From an uncultured Eubacteriales bacterium (GTDB lineage Bacteria > Bacillota > Clostridia > Peptostreptococcales > Anaerovoracaceae), in NCBI GenBank assembly GCA_902775345.1, contig CACYLW010000007.1, positions 62,001-126,000 of the forward strand: a stretch of DNA of 64,000 bases. Direction: 5' to 3'. Under the pieces are notes generated by a model. The model did not search any database. It had not been told where the DNA came from and saw only the letters and a program-made list of their open reading frames with translations. A program made the position numbers and the translations under genes. Every line of letters begins with the position of its first letter. The first letter of the stretch is position 1. This document shows positions 6,355 through 11,685 of the stretch, one piece after another.

Positions 6355-7539
6355 ATGAAAAAGACTATTAAAGACATCGACTGGGCCGGCAAAAAGGCAG
6401 TGATGAGATGTGACTTCAACGTTCCGCTTGACGGAGATACCATCACCGATGATATCCGTATCAGAGCTGCACTTCCGAGCATCGAGTATCTTCTTGATAA
6501 CGGTGCTGCTGTAGTACTAATGTCGCACCTCGGCAGACCTAAGGGTGAACCAAAGCCTGAGTTCAGCCTTGCACCTGTTGCAAAAAGACTTGCTGAACTT
6601 ACCGGCAAGGAAGTCAAGTTTGTTCCTTCTGATGTAGTTGTGGATGACAATGTAAAAGCAGCGGCAAAGGATCTTAAAGCCGGTGAGATGCTCCTCATCG
6701 AGAACGTAAGATACAGAGCCGGAGAAACAAAGAACGATCCTGAATTCGCCAAGGAGCTTTCAGAGCTCGGCGACATCTTCGTTCAGGATGCTTTCGGATC
6801 CGCACACAGAGCACATTCTTCAACAGCGGGCATAGCAGATTATATTCCTGCAGTATCTGGATTCCTTATTGAAAAGGAACTCAAATTCCTCGGAGAAGCA
6901 GTTAACAACCCTCAGAGACCGTTTGCTGCCATCATGGGAGGCGCAAAGGTAAAGGACAAGATTCCGGTGATCACAAACCTGCTCGACAAGGTAGACATCC
7001 TTATTATCGGAGGAGGAATGGCATATACATTCTTCAAATCACAGGGATATTCAATCGGAAAGTCGCTTCTTGACGAAGAAGGCCTCGAACTCGCAGGGGA
7101 GATCCTTAAGAAAGCATCCGAGAAGGGTGTTAAGTTCATGCTTCCTGTAGATGTCGTTGCTGCTGATGAGTTTGCTAACGATTCGCCTCACGCTACTTAC
7201 GCTGTTGACGAGATCCCAGATGACAGGATGGGCCTGGATATCGGAGAAGAGACGATCAAGCTCTATACCGATGCTCTCAAGACTGCAAAGACAGTCGTAT
7301 GGAACGGACCTATGGGCGTATTCGAAATGGAGAACTTCGCTGTTGGTACAAAAGCAATAGCAGAGTGCCTTGCAGAGATCGATGCCACCACAGTGATCGG
7401 AGGCGGAGACAGTGCAGCAGCTGTAGCTAAATTCGGTCTTGCAGACAAGATGACTCACATAAGCACCGGCGGAGGAGCAAGCCTCGAGTTCCTTGAAGGA
7501 AAAGAACTGCCGGGAATCGCAATTATTGATGAAAAATAG
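6355..7539 (+). CDS. pgk: Phosphoglycerate kinase
   Basis: Cytosolic glycolytic enzyme that makes ATP from 1,3-bisphosphoglycerate. The 394-residue protein has the typical N-terminal substrate motif [10 protein letters not shown] near residues 18-27, the [12 protein letters not shown] stretch, and the C-terminal nucleotide motif GGGDSAAA. The ATG at 6355 follows the strong site AAAAAGGAGAG. tpiA starts 13 bp downstream, so the two are one transcript. Codon choice is more biased than in the flanking repair genes, as expected for an abundant enzyme. Confidence 0.98.
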
Positions 7540-7552
7540 GAGAGGGAAAACC

Positions 7553-8311
7553 ATGAAGAAATTTTTGATCGCAGGAAACTGGAAAATGAACAAGACATCA
7601 GCTGAAGCTGTTGCTTTTGCTGAAGAACTCAAGGCAAAGAACCTTCCGAACGCAAAGGATGTATGCGTACTCGCACCGTTCACAGCCATTGCCGGCCTCG
7701 GCAAGGCTTTTGAAGGAACCGGCATCGGCTTCGGAGCTCAGAACGTACATTTCGAGCCGAAGGGCGCGTTCACCGGAGAGATCTCGGTAGAAATGCTTCA
7801 GGAACTGGGCATCGGATACTGCGTAATCGGTCACTCTGAAAGAAGAGAGTACTTTGCTGAGACAGACGAAACAGTAAATAAGAAACTCAAGGTTCTTATT
7901 GAGGCAGGAATCACTCCTATTCTCTGCGTTGGTGAATCCCTCGAAGTAAGAGAGCAGGGCGGAGAGCAGACATTCGTCGCAGGACAGGTAATCGCAGACT
8001 TTGCCGGAATTCCGGCTGCTGACGCTGCAAAGGTAGTCATCGCTTATGAGCCTATCTGGGCTATCGGCACAGGAAAGACTGCTACACCTGATCAGGCGGA
8101 AGAGATGTGCGCATTTATCAGAGGAGTCGTTTCGGGCATCTATGATAACGCAACCGGAGACGGCATGCTCATCCTTTACGGCGGATCGATGAAGCCTTCC
8201 AATGCTAAGGAACTCCTCGAGAAGCCTGATATCAACGGAGGCCTCATCGGCGGTGCAAGTCTTAAGGCTGATGACTTCGCAGCTATCGCTGAGGCAGCGG
8301 CTTCACTGTAA
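7553..8311 (+). CDS. tpiA: Triose-phosphate isomerase
   Basis: Interconverts dihydroxyacetone phosphate and glyceraldehyde 3-phosphate. The 252-residue protein has catalytic N9 and K11 in AGNWKMN, His94 in GHSERR, and Glu166 in AYEPIWAIGTGKT. The start is ATG 7553, preceded by AGGAGAGGG; an in-frame upstream extension to 7493 would run back into pgk and is not real. In many Firmicutes gpmI and eno follow here; in this window secG follows instead. Confidence 0.98.
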   Translation: MKKFLIAGNWKMNKTSAEAVAFAEELKAKNLPNAKDVCVLAPFTAIAGLGKAFEGTGIGFGAQNVHFEPKGAFTGEISVEMLQELGIGYCVIGHSERREYFAETDETVNKKLKVLIEAGITPILCVGESLEVREQGGEQTFVAGQVIADFAGIPAADAAKVVIAYEPIWAIGTGKTATPDQAEEMCAFIRGVVSGIYDNATGDGMLILYGGSMKPSNAKELLEKPDINGGLIGGASLKADDFAAIAEAAASL

Positions 8312-8396: not shown

Positions 8397-8416
8397 ACTA
8401 AGTTTTGGAGGACACA

Positions 8417-8650
8417 ATGCATACCGCTTTAATGGTAATCCTTTTGATTTCAAGCCTGGTGCTCATCGTGAGCATTCTTCTGCAGACAAGTAAGAGTGAC
8501 GGACTCTCGGGTTCGATCGCAGGCGGAGCCGAGCAGCTCTTCGGAAAGAGAAAGAGCAGGGGTTATGACGCGCTTCTCGCAAGGATCACAACGGTCTGTG
8601 CGATCATATACATCGTCGTATCGCTCGTTATCGTCGCAATTTTCAACTAG
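8417..8650 (+). CDS. secG: Protein translocase subunit SecG
   Basis: Small accessory subunit of the SecYEG channel. The 77-residue protein has two hydrophobic segments, at about residues 2-22 and 53-75, joined by a polar Gly/Ser-rich loop (SDGLSGSIAGG...LFGKRKSRG) that is typical of SecG. The start is ATG 8417, 5 bases after the site GGAGG at 8407-8411; the TTG at 8405 overlaps this site and is rejected. The next gene starts 45 bp downstream. Confidence 0.92.
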   Translation: MHTALMVILLISSLVLIVSILLQTSKSDGLSGSIAGGAEQLFGKRKSRGYDALLARITTVCAIIYIVVSLVIVAIFN

Positions 8651-8695: not shown

Positions 8696-10495
8696 ATGCT
8701 CAAAATCATAACGCTGATCTGCGCTCTGATAGGACTTCTTGCCGCGATCTCTCTGGAGACCTGGATCAGAAGCCGTATAATCAGAAATGAGGCTTCAGCT
8801 GAAACTTACGCAGAAGTCAAAAGCAGGAAATCAGAATTCTGGTCAATTCAATATTTGCCGCTTATAGTGATGCTCGCGTTGCTTGCAGCAGCTCTGTTTG
8901 TATTCGTCGGGCGCCTGAATGCCGCTGTCTTCTTAGGGGGAGCGGCTCTTTGCTTTGTTTCCGTCATTACCGGAGCCAGCACTGTAGTCAGCGGAAGCAT
9001 CGCTTCTTCGTCTACGGCTGTTACCGGAGACATAAGAAACTCTCTGAAGACTGCGTACAGATCTGCAGCGGTAATGGGACTCAGCGTATCGTCTATAGCT
9101 CTTGTCGGACTTGGTGTGCTTTTCTTCTTCCTGAAAAGAGAACAGCTCATCGACCTTGTCGCAAGCTTCGCTCTAGGAGCTTCTGCTGTTTCCCTGATGA
9201 TAGGAGTATCGGGAACTGCATTCTCGGGAGCTTATTCGCTTACTGTCAAGAGTGACGATTTCACCGACTACACCGGAATGTTCATAGGCAGCGGAGCAGA
9301 TCATGTCGAAACATATATACTGTCGGCCTGCTCAGCAGCTCTGCTTTCAGGTGTAGCTGTAGACACATCCGGCATCATGTCGACATTCACAGCTACATCT
9401 GCTGCAAGATATCCGCTGATAGTAATGGGAGGCGGAATTATCGCTTCCGTCATAGGCATCATGATATACAGAGGGTACGTCGTAAAAAGACCTGCCGAAG
9501 GACTTACGATAGGTAATTTTGTCGCTGCTGTGCTTACGGCTGCCGTAGCTGTATATTTCAGCAATGATCTGCTTCAGTCATATGTATACGGAGTATGCGT
9601 ATCGCTGGGCATGCTTGCCGCTCTCATTTCAGGAGAGGCGTCCAAGGCATATTCTACGGATGGAGCTGTTTTTAAGCGCTTCCTTCCTGATGTAAAAAGA
9701 ACAGGCGTCAGCCAGTCAATGATCTACAGCCTGTCGATCGGAATGATATCCGTAATAATACCGGCTGTACTCACGACTACGGCCATGATACTCGCATACA
9801 ATTACGCCAACTTCTATGGCATCGCGCTTGCCGCGGTCGGTATCAACTCAATGGCAGCAGTCAACTCGGCGGTAAGAGGCTTTTCGATCAATACAGCCAG
9901 CGCCTCCGAGATAGCTTCTGTATGTGATCCTGACGCAGAGAGCCCGAATCCCGCTGACGTTCTTCTGACCGCTTCTGTTAGATCCGATTCAGTTGGCAAG
10001 ACATATTCAGGCGTTGCTGCGTACGTAACTCTCGTGGCAATGTACACGGCACTTTCGGTTGTAGCCAATAATCCGGCTATAAACCTTCTGAGTACTCCGG
10101 TATTCACGGGCATAACCATCGGGGCCGTGATCGTATTTGTATGCGCCGGGTTCATAATTAGATCAATAAGAATGACCAGCCAGGTGCTTCGCTCCAGACT
10201 GAGTGATTCATATGACCCTGAGAAGCGAATAACTGCTCTCAGAGGCCTTTTGCCGCTGTTCATAATATCATTTGCCGCACCGCTCGCAGCTGTAGCTGCA
10301 GGAGGCGTAAACGGCCTCATATCTTTCTCGTGCGCGGCATCAGTCACCGGTATGTGCGTGATTTTCGCGTTCAACAACGCAGGAAAGCATTTTGACAGAC
10401 TGGCTACCGAGACACTGGGAACAATTATAAAGCTGATGGTAGCAGTAACACTCGTATTTGCTCCGCTCTTTATGGAGTTCGGGGGGATCTTTTAG
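8696..10495 (+). CDS. Membrane pyrophosphatase-like protein lacking the catalytic motifs
   Basis: A 599-residue polytopic membrane protein. Several stretches line up with ion-pumping membrane pyrophosphatase (HppA): RNSLKTAYRSAAVMGLSV at 114-131, FALGASAVSLMIGVSG at 158-173, GIALAAVGINS at 375-385, and a C-terminal FNNAGKHFDR...IKLMV...APLF segment. The parts that bind pyrophosphate and Mg are missing. The segment equivalent to KAADVGADLVGKVE plus the DDPRNP and DNVGDNVGD motifs is collapsed to about 25 residues (176-200) without that Asp array. DNAGG is replaced by SINTASASE, and the KYIE/GDTVGDPFKDT block is deleted. I infer a degenerate homologue that cannot hydrolyse pyrophosphate; its function is unknown. 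The start has GGAG 8 bases upstream. It follows secG by 45 bp and may share its transcript. Confidence 0.75.
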   Translation: MLKIITLICALIGLLAAISLETWIRSRIIRNEASAETYAEVKSRKSEFWSIQYLPLIVMLALLAAALFVFVGRLNAAVFLGGAALCFVSVITGASTVVSGSIASSSTAVTGDIRNSLKTAYRSAAVMGLSVSSIALVGLGVLFFFLKREQLIDLVASFALGASAVSLMIGVSGTAFSGAYSLTVKSDDFTDYTGMFIGSGADHVETYILSACSAALLSGVAVDTSGIMSTFTATSAARYPLIVMGGGIIASVIGIMIYRGYVVKRPAEGLTIGNFVAAVLTAAVAVYFSNDLLQSYVYGVCVSLGMLAALISGEASKAYSTDGAVFKRFLPDVKRTGVSQSMIYSLSIGMISVIIPAVLTTTAMILAYNYANFYGIALAAVGINSMAAVNSAVRGFSINTASASEIASVCDPDAESPNPADVLLTASVRSDSVGKTYSGVAAYVTLVAMYTALSVVANNPAINLLSTPVFTGITIGAVIVFVCAGFIIRSIRMTSQVLRSRLSDSYDPEKRITALRGLLPLFIISFAAPLAAVAAGGVNGLISFSCAASVTGMCVIFAFNNAGKHFDRLATETLGTIIKLMVAVTLVFAPLFMEFGGIF

Positions 10496-10532: not shown

Positions 10533-10569
10533 ACGGCGGCTCTGCAGAAAAGCCGCCGTTATTAATTTA
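10533..10569 (+). terminator. Rho-independent terminator after the pyrophosphatase-like gene
   Basis: A 9-bp GC-rich stem (ACGGCGGCT / AGCCGCCGT) with a 9-nt loop, followed by TATTAATTTAA. It lies 38 bp after the stop and separates this unit from butyrate kinase. The T tract is broken, so efficiency is uncertain. Confidence 0.65.
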
Positions 10570-10590: not shown

Positions 10591-11685
10591 ATGAAAAACA
10601 ACAGATTCCGCATATTCGTGATCAATCCGGGTTCGACTTCAACCAAACTCGCTCTCTTTGAGAATAATATAAAGATACTTGAAACATCGGTAACTCACGA
10701 TGCTGAAGTACTTAACTCATTCCCGACGCCGAACGATCAGTTCGACTACAGAATGAGAGTCATCAGAGACTTCGTAGAAAATAATGATATCGAACTTGAC
10801 AATATCGATGCCTTCGTGGGACGCGGAGGCGGATGCTATCCTGTACCGAGCGGAACGTTCGAGGTGAATGACCTTCTTCTTAAGGACATTAGGAACAACG
10901 TAGGCCGCTCCATACATCCATCAATACTGGGAGTACAGCTTGCGTATGAGATGCAGCAGGAATATGGCGGGAGGCTGTTCATGGTCGATCCGACATGTGT
11001 CGATGAGTATACTGATGTGGCACGTGTCACAGGGGTGAAAGGCCTGGAACGCCGGGCAGAGTCTCATGCTCTCAACCTGAGGGGCACTGCGATGAAGCAC
11101 TGTAAGATCCATGGCCTGGATTACAAAAAGACAAATCTTGTCGTAGCCCACATCGACGGAGGCATCACCATAGCCGCGCAGAAGAACGGGAGACAGATAG
11201 ACTGCAACCAGGGCGCCGGCGGTGAAGGACCATTCACTGCGACACGTACAGGTTCGCTTCCTCTTATGGAAGTGCTCGAATATTTCCAGGATCATACCGT
11301 AGAAGAGATGCGCCATCTCTGTACAGGGACAGGCGGATTTGTCTCACACTTCGGAACATCAGACGCTGACGAAGTGTATATGAGAGTACTTGACGGTGAT
11401 GAAGAAGCAAAACTTGTCTGGGAAGCGCTTTGCTACAACATTGTAAAATATATCGGCTCGATGGCTACCGTCCTTAAGGGAAATGTTGACGGTATCCTGA
11501 TCACCGGCCGTTATACCCGCTTCCGCGGACTTATTAAATACATCAGGGAATACACCGGATGGATAGCTCCTATCTATATTTATGAAAACGAGGTGGAGCA
11601 GGAAGCCATGTGTGCCGGAGCTCTCAGAGTTCTCAGAGGCGAAGAAGAAGCGAAGATATATACCGGCAAAGGTATGGTAAAATAA
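10591..11685 (+). CDS. buk: Butyrate kinase
   Basis: Acyl-phosphate kinase of the acetokinase family that makes ATP from butyryl (or branched acyl) phosphate. The 364-residue protein begins FRIFVINPGSTSTKLALF, the family's phosphate-binding start. It has VGRGGG near residue 77, AHIDGGITIAA near 186, and GAGGEGPF near 208. Length is normal. The usual partner phosphotransbutyrylase (ptb) is not adjacent on either side. The ATG follows AGTAAGGGCAG. A fermentative role is inferred; substrate preference cannot be read from sequence. Confidence 0.95.
   Translation: MKNNRFRIFVINPGSTSTKLALFENNIKILETSVTHDAEVLNSFPTPNDQFDYRMRVIRDFVENNDIELDNIDAFVGRGGGCYPVPSGTFEVNDLLLKDIRNNVGRSIHPSILGVQLAYEMQQEYGGRLFMVDPTCVDEYTDVARVTGVKGLERRAESHALNLRGTAMKHCKIHGLDYKKTNLVVAHIDGGITIAAQKNGRQIDCNQGAGGEGPFTATRTGSLPLMEVLEYFQDHTVEEMRHLCTGTGGFVSHFGTSDADEVYMRVLDGDEEAKLVWEALCYNIVKYIGSMATVLKGNVDGILITGRYTRFRGLIKYIREYTGWIAPIYIYENEVEQEAMCAGALRVLRGEEEAKIYTGKGMVK

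Follow-up and report, generated by a model that had tools for sequence, protein, structure and literature searches.

The DNA between secG and a butyrate-kinase-like gene raises the question of why a bacterium would maintain a membrane pyrophosphatase (mPPase) that has lost its machinery for splitting pyrophosphate (PPi). The window analysed here, a 64,000-nucleotide stretch of contig CACYLW010000007.1 from an uncultured Eubacteriales bacterium, contains a gene for a 599-residue protein, which the original prediction described as an mPPase homologue stripped of its active site. mPPases have been treated as one mechanism on one fold, with PPi binding, the gate and pumping coupled. A conserved family in nature that has this fold and some of the gate, with no PPi site, would let this coupling be tested, including whether the gate conducts alone, what shuts it, and how a primary pump comes to be retired and put to new use. 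From sequence comparison and structure prediction, it is almost certain that the short protein is the orthologue, in place, of the mPPase found in related bacteria between secG and pheS (K+-dependent and of the Na+ type by its residues), with three segments cut, nearly all other PPi and Mg ligands replaced, and the predicted 16-helix fold and part of the buried gate kept under purifying selection. Gut bacteria related to Mogibacterium maintain by selection a membrane protein of predicted pump shape without the PPi-splitting machinery, and an energy-consuming pump seems to have taken on another role. The features of the gene are as follows, where TM denotes a transmembrane helix, numbers such as 6.35 give positions within helices, and L078 is an intact mPPase from genome G082 of the same genus.

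8696..10495, + strand: gene for the mPPase-fold protein without a hydrolytic centre, 599 residues (open reading frame (ORF) listing, profile match, model)
9239..9244, + strand: junction of deletion 1, between residues 182 and 183; 20 residues of the TM5-6 active-site loop gone, L078 185-204 (alignment)
9254..9268, + strand: remnant of DNVGDNVGD, with D187 (6.35) and D191 (6.39) kept (alignment)
9299..9310, + strand: ionic-gate acids D202 (6.50) and E205 (6.53), kept (alignment)
9998..10000, + strand: K435 (12.50), kept (alignment)
10223..10228, + strand: junction of deletion 2, between residues 510 and 511; 18 residues between TM13 and TM14 gone, L078 533-550 (alignment)
10397..10402, + strand: junction of deletion 3, between residues 568 and 569; 33 residues of the TM15-16 catalytic loop gone, L078 609-641 (alignment)
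10430..10432, + strand: ionic-gate K579 (16.50), kept (alignment)

The coordinates and length given earlier agree with the ORF listing, and profile searches bore out the homology. The short protein matched Pfam PF03030 (H_PPase) with an E value of 3.9e-41 and 141.9 bits, well above the gathering score of 29.7, and mPPases in the PDB matched it with E values down to 4.1e-14 (best 6afu). Its predicted structure has the 16-helix mPPase fold. NCBIfam models of Na+-pyrophosphatases matched far under their cut-off (best 169.8 bits, 546 required), and the protein is not an equivalog by these models.

We then aligned 40 short proteins (from the 41 genomes of the genus that carry the gene, with G233 left out) with 33 intact type A and 20 intact type B mPPases; some rows of each group end at contig ends. 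Roles of the scored residues were taken from the consulted part of PMC6882861, whose N12.53 is, in our own reading, presumably N12.43 (N534 of VrPPase). The L078 segments 185-204, 533-550 and 609-641 were absent from all 38 main-lineage short rows wherever these cover them. The first deletion extends to L078 205 in L085 and L087, contig ends truncate rows L093, L094 and L095, and L090 additionally lacks L078 3-57, in frame. Deletions 1 and 3 remove the two catalytic loops, TM5-6 and TM15-16. All 15 columns of the hydrolytic centre were kept in 49 of 49 full-length intact proteins, compared with 16 of 225 cells over 15 short representatives less than 70% identical to one another. The window protein retains two of the 15 residues (D187 and D567), eight of the columns being deleted, and by this residue set does not qualify as a functional pump.

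The claimed loss of the Mg- and PPi-binding blocks was therefore upheld for the three deletions, seen by alignment with 53 intact relatives, and needs correction for DNVGDNVGD, which is degraded rather than absent. The main short lineage has the same losses wherever its rows cover them, as the catalytic-residue listing and survey of relatives proposed with that claim revealed. Retention of the catalytic residues in shifted positions was rejected, as the remnants D187, D191, D202 and D567 (15.61) align in register with the intact proteins. Since the PPi/Mg site is lost, the short protein should, by established mPPase chemistry, not hydrolyse PPi, and hence should not act as a PPi-driven pump. 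Naming by family match would label such proteins pyrophosphatases though PPi hydrolysis is not expected of them. No description of an inactive mPPase family was found in the open-access literature, among the matches listed.

An intact frame, normal codon use and maintenance of the gene had also been predicted, and all three were supported. Codon use is ordinary, with a GC content at third codon positions of 0.49 and a correlation with the neighbours of 0.80, against 0.79-0.94 for four neighbouring genes. Ratios of nonsynonymous to synonymous substitution (dN/dS) were estimated by the Nei-Gojobori method (NG86) for the 26 of 153 pairs with dS between 0.05 and 1.2; the values are simple and partly saturated. 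The median for the short gene was 0.067 (0.040-0.085), and over the same pairs pgk gave 0.031, tpiA 0.037, secG 0.050, buk 0.017 (25 pairs) and pheS 0.016 (22 pairs). Twelve further short-gene pairs, of which L013-L015 is also among the 26, ranged from 0.048 to 0.188, most being near saturation and one undefined. Intact type B genes gave 0.013-0.060 (7 pairs), and intact type A genes 0.072 and 0.122 (2 pairs). Constraint on the short gene is therefore weaker than on type B and on the neighbouring genes but, given the two type A pairs, not clearly weaker than on type A.

This faster change is what a decaying relic without function would show, and two odd forms point the same way: in G220 the reading frame is broken close to the gene's start, and in G198 (L082) the short form is reduced to 499 residues. 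We nevertheless consider a relic very unlikely. Only the top end of the 26-pair range exceeds the lower type A value, the same three deletions occur in every main-lineage row covering them, and no internal stops were seen in the genus matches to the short protein, whereas a neutral simulation at 0.5 substitutions per site gave a mean of 16.6 stops per lineage (minimum 8). The relic was set aside on dN/dS and the absence of internal stops, the G220 break notwithstanding. The break itself lies at about 7542-7665 of L090, with residues 1-27 and 45 onward in different frames, and may be real or an assembly error. These sequence comparisons indicate that the short protein is under purifying selection.

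By hand count, the gene is present in 41 of the 47 genomes of the genus, with the odd forms in G197 and G198 included, and an assembly artefact was set aside on this recurrence. Three of the six non-carriers have a canonical copy at the locus (G082, G237 and G216), G218 has a canonical type B copy elsewhere, and G199 and G211 gave no match, G199 being uninformative because its contig stops by secG. Public relatives that bear a name are listed as assemblies of Mogibacterium sp. or Clostridiales, and several come from the gut of sheep, goat or horse (17 loci). No short forms outside the genus were found among the best-scoring matches listed from the family (197 genomes), order (393) and class (391), samples that overlap each other and the genus. 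Genome G398, of another genus, has an mPPase at its secG locus (L132 6345-8408, 351 bits) that is canonical save for a 4-residue deletion in DNVGDNVGD, which may be an assembly slip or an early inactivation.

The gene order in the window is pgk, tpiA, secG, short mPPase gene, buk, pheS and pheT, where we take the names of the neighbours (buk standing for a buk-like gene) from their families.

6355..7539, + strand: pgk, conserved neighbour (ORF listing, flank comparison)
7493..8311, + strand: tpiA, conserved neighbour; listed ORF, true start probably about 7553 (ORF listing, flank comparison)
8405..8650, + strand: secG, conserved neighbour (ORF listing, flank comparison)
10591..11685, + strand: butyrate-kinase-like gene (buk), adjoining in most, not all, relatives (ORF listing, flank comparison)

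Flanks were compared in all 41 carriers (the window, 38 loci, L123 and L066). As far as the contigs reach, the short gene occupies the position pgk-tpiA-secG-[gene]-(buk)-pheS-pheT, with buk absent at the G223 and G201 loci. Between the short gene and the buk-like gene, at 10533-10559, lies an 11-pair, terminator-like hairpin on the minus strand; such hairpins in the window are not above chance in number (6 against 5.4 expected).

The gene immediately upstream is secG, both in the window and in 38 of 38 other carrier loci covering that side, so the short protein could serve the Sec translocase as a scaffold or accessory factor; the original prediction had entertained a scaffold next to SecG. 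However, a canonical mPPase adjoins secG at this place both within the genus, in G082 (L078) and G237 (L079), and in other genera, in L107, L110 and L111. The adjacency therefore predates the change, which speaks against a special link to SecG, and a Sec role, scarcely credible on this ancestral synteny, was set aside. In G216 (L080) a canonical mPPase adjoins pheS, with runs of N around it. The locus of G077 (L168, genus g78) lacks an mPPase; it has what are presumably an RNase-R-like gene after secG and an enolase-like gene between tpiA and secG.

In the gene tree, all short proteins fell on one side of a branch with a support of 99 in the Shimodaira-Hasegawa-like approximate likelihood ratio test (SH-aLRT), though long branches meet there. 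A tree of five neighbouring genes did not reject a single clade (p-AU, from the approximately unbiased test, 0.094), with two outgroup rows not grouping together. Two degenerate forms (L082 6159-7655 and L083 6345-8141) have in common a 32-residue deletion (L078 341-372) that the main lineage does not show, and L083 keeps the length of the TM5-6 loop with most of its catalytic residues gone; a second, partly separate path is therefore possible. Given the synteny with intact copies and the two trees, the parsimonious reading is that the short gene arose by inactivation in place, L082 and L083 representing a second degenerate form.

What supplies PPi-driven pumping instead? The genome of the window (G000) has one other, intact hppA on another contig (C13:128737-130770, 913.5 bits), the subject of a check suggested earlier, and Pfam found another, canonical mPPase in 36 of 41 carriers, some copies being split, contig-cut or interrupted by a stop (for example G212, G214 and G233). 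In 12 of 13 carriers checked this second copy lies beside or near glyS and ppdK, which we take to encode pyruvate phosphate dikinase; in the exception, G197, ppdK is on a different contig from the other mPPase. The copy at this site is type B in G000 and eight more genomes, and type A in G198, G200 and G201. At L106 2684-7804 (G000 C13) and at L169-L176, glyS and ppdK are followed by the intact type B hppA, with only the ppdK end covered in L172. This suggests that a PPi pump has repeatedly been placed beside a PPi-linked enzyme.

A second mPPase in most carriers, a few copies split or with a stop, would also fit a heterodimer in which the short protein regulates the intact pump, since mPPases are homodimers whose subunits communicate, as described in the consulted part of PMC6882861. 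A regulatory partner was among the roles named in the original prediction. Yet the sister genomes G235 and G232, which keep the short gene, have no other mPPase by Pfam, although absence from drafts 93% and 82% complete is no proof. In both, the assembly covers the glyS-ppdK site, where other genes adjoin and a second copy is absent, and dN/dS between their short genes is still 0.048 (dS 1.9, near saturation). Moreover, the type of the intact partner differs between carriers. Taken together, these points weaken the regulatory role and make a heterodimer improbable. No other mPPase was seen in G196, which is not counted as its ppdK is near a contig end, and G206 and G238 gave no ppdK match.

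The retained residues bear on what the protein may do now. Over the six ionic-gate columns (S5.43, D6.50, E6.53, S6.54, D/N16.46 and K16.50), 51 of 90 cells were kept in the short representatives; the difference from the hydrolytic centre has a Fisher p of 1.7e-20, which is descriptive only because the cells are not independent. The window protein keeps four of the six (S163, D202, E205 and K579), and the remaining two positions hold T206 and G575. All 15 representatives keep D6.39; at 6.50, 13 of them have D and two have E. At other columns invariant in intact proteins 968 of 3360 cells were kept, including 40 of 360 polar ones.

As the gate charges outlive the hydrolytic residues, a channel role, floated in the original prediction, emerges as a weak favourite. 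PPi energetics would have been taken over by another mPPase, usually the one beside ppdK, freeing the short-gene copy, and the old gate (D191, D202, E205, K435 and K579) may now serve as a passive or secondary, PPi-independent Na+/H+ pathway whose cytosolic side would no longer be closed by PPi loops. We regard this whole explanation, an emptied mPPase orthologue with a cation pathway, as plausible at somewhat below even confidence; the cation role taken by itself is a tentative suggestion from residue conservation, and, though the best single mechanism, it is only modestly supported. A number of observations weigh against it. R5.50 is kept in 5, N16.46 in 2 and D11.50 in none of the 15 representatives; E6.53 and K16.50 are both lost in L097, L102, L085 and L087, and E6.53 alone in L099, L100 and L092-L094. 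Structural salt bridges could account for the charges that remain, and an ungated leak would be costly. In eight intact representatives the inner helices are more conserved than the outer (0.822 vs 0.556), whereas among short proteins the values are 0.380 and 0.366, with helix limits set by hand from the model and an inner ring composed as we presume. The central pathway is therefore not the main constraint.

Such even constraint would suit an emptied cytosolic chamber that binds another small molecule, a lipid or a protein, making the protein a sensor, receptor or transporter. C9, in 33 of 33 short proteins (mostly A in intact ones), and Y437, in all 15 representatives (where the 53 intact proteins have F), are fixed and unlike the usual intact letter. 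There is, however, no extra domain, no diagnostic new motif and no constant new neighbour (buk is gone at G223 and G201), and nothing points to a ligand; we consider this reading possible but doubtful. If the cation-pathway reading is true, the family represents a natural pump-to-channel change within the mPPase fold. That the loss of three cytosolic segments, the catalytic loops among them, turned a PPi-driven primary ion pump into a channel or secondary transporter for cations that is independent of PPi and keeps the old gate is, in our judgement, rather unlikely.

This is a genuine mPPase family, selected and catalytically emptied, whose fold is known and whose enzymatic role is lost. Compared with the K+-dependent, Na+-translocating TmPPase of Thermotoga maritima (PDB 4av3 and others), the window protein has 599 residues against a 735-residue chain, with both catalytic loops (TM5-6 and TM15-16) and almost all of the PPi/Mg ligands missing. 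It has its chromosomal slot in common with the intact mPPases of G082 and G237, at 31% and 29% identity, but unlike it these keep all 15 residues of the hydrolytic centre. The vacuolar H+-pyrophosphatase of Vigna radiata (4a01, 5gpj and 6afu) is alike in fold and provides the best PDB sequence match (6afu); according to the consulted part of PMC6882861, it is an active H+ pump with its gate glutamate at 6.57.
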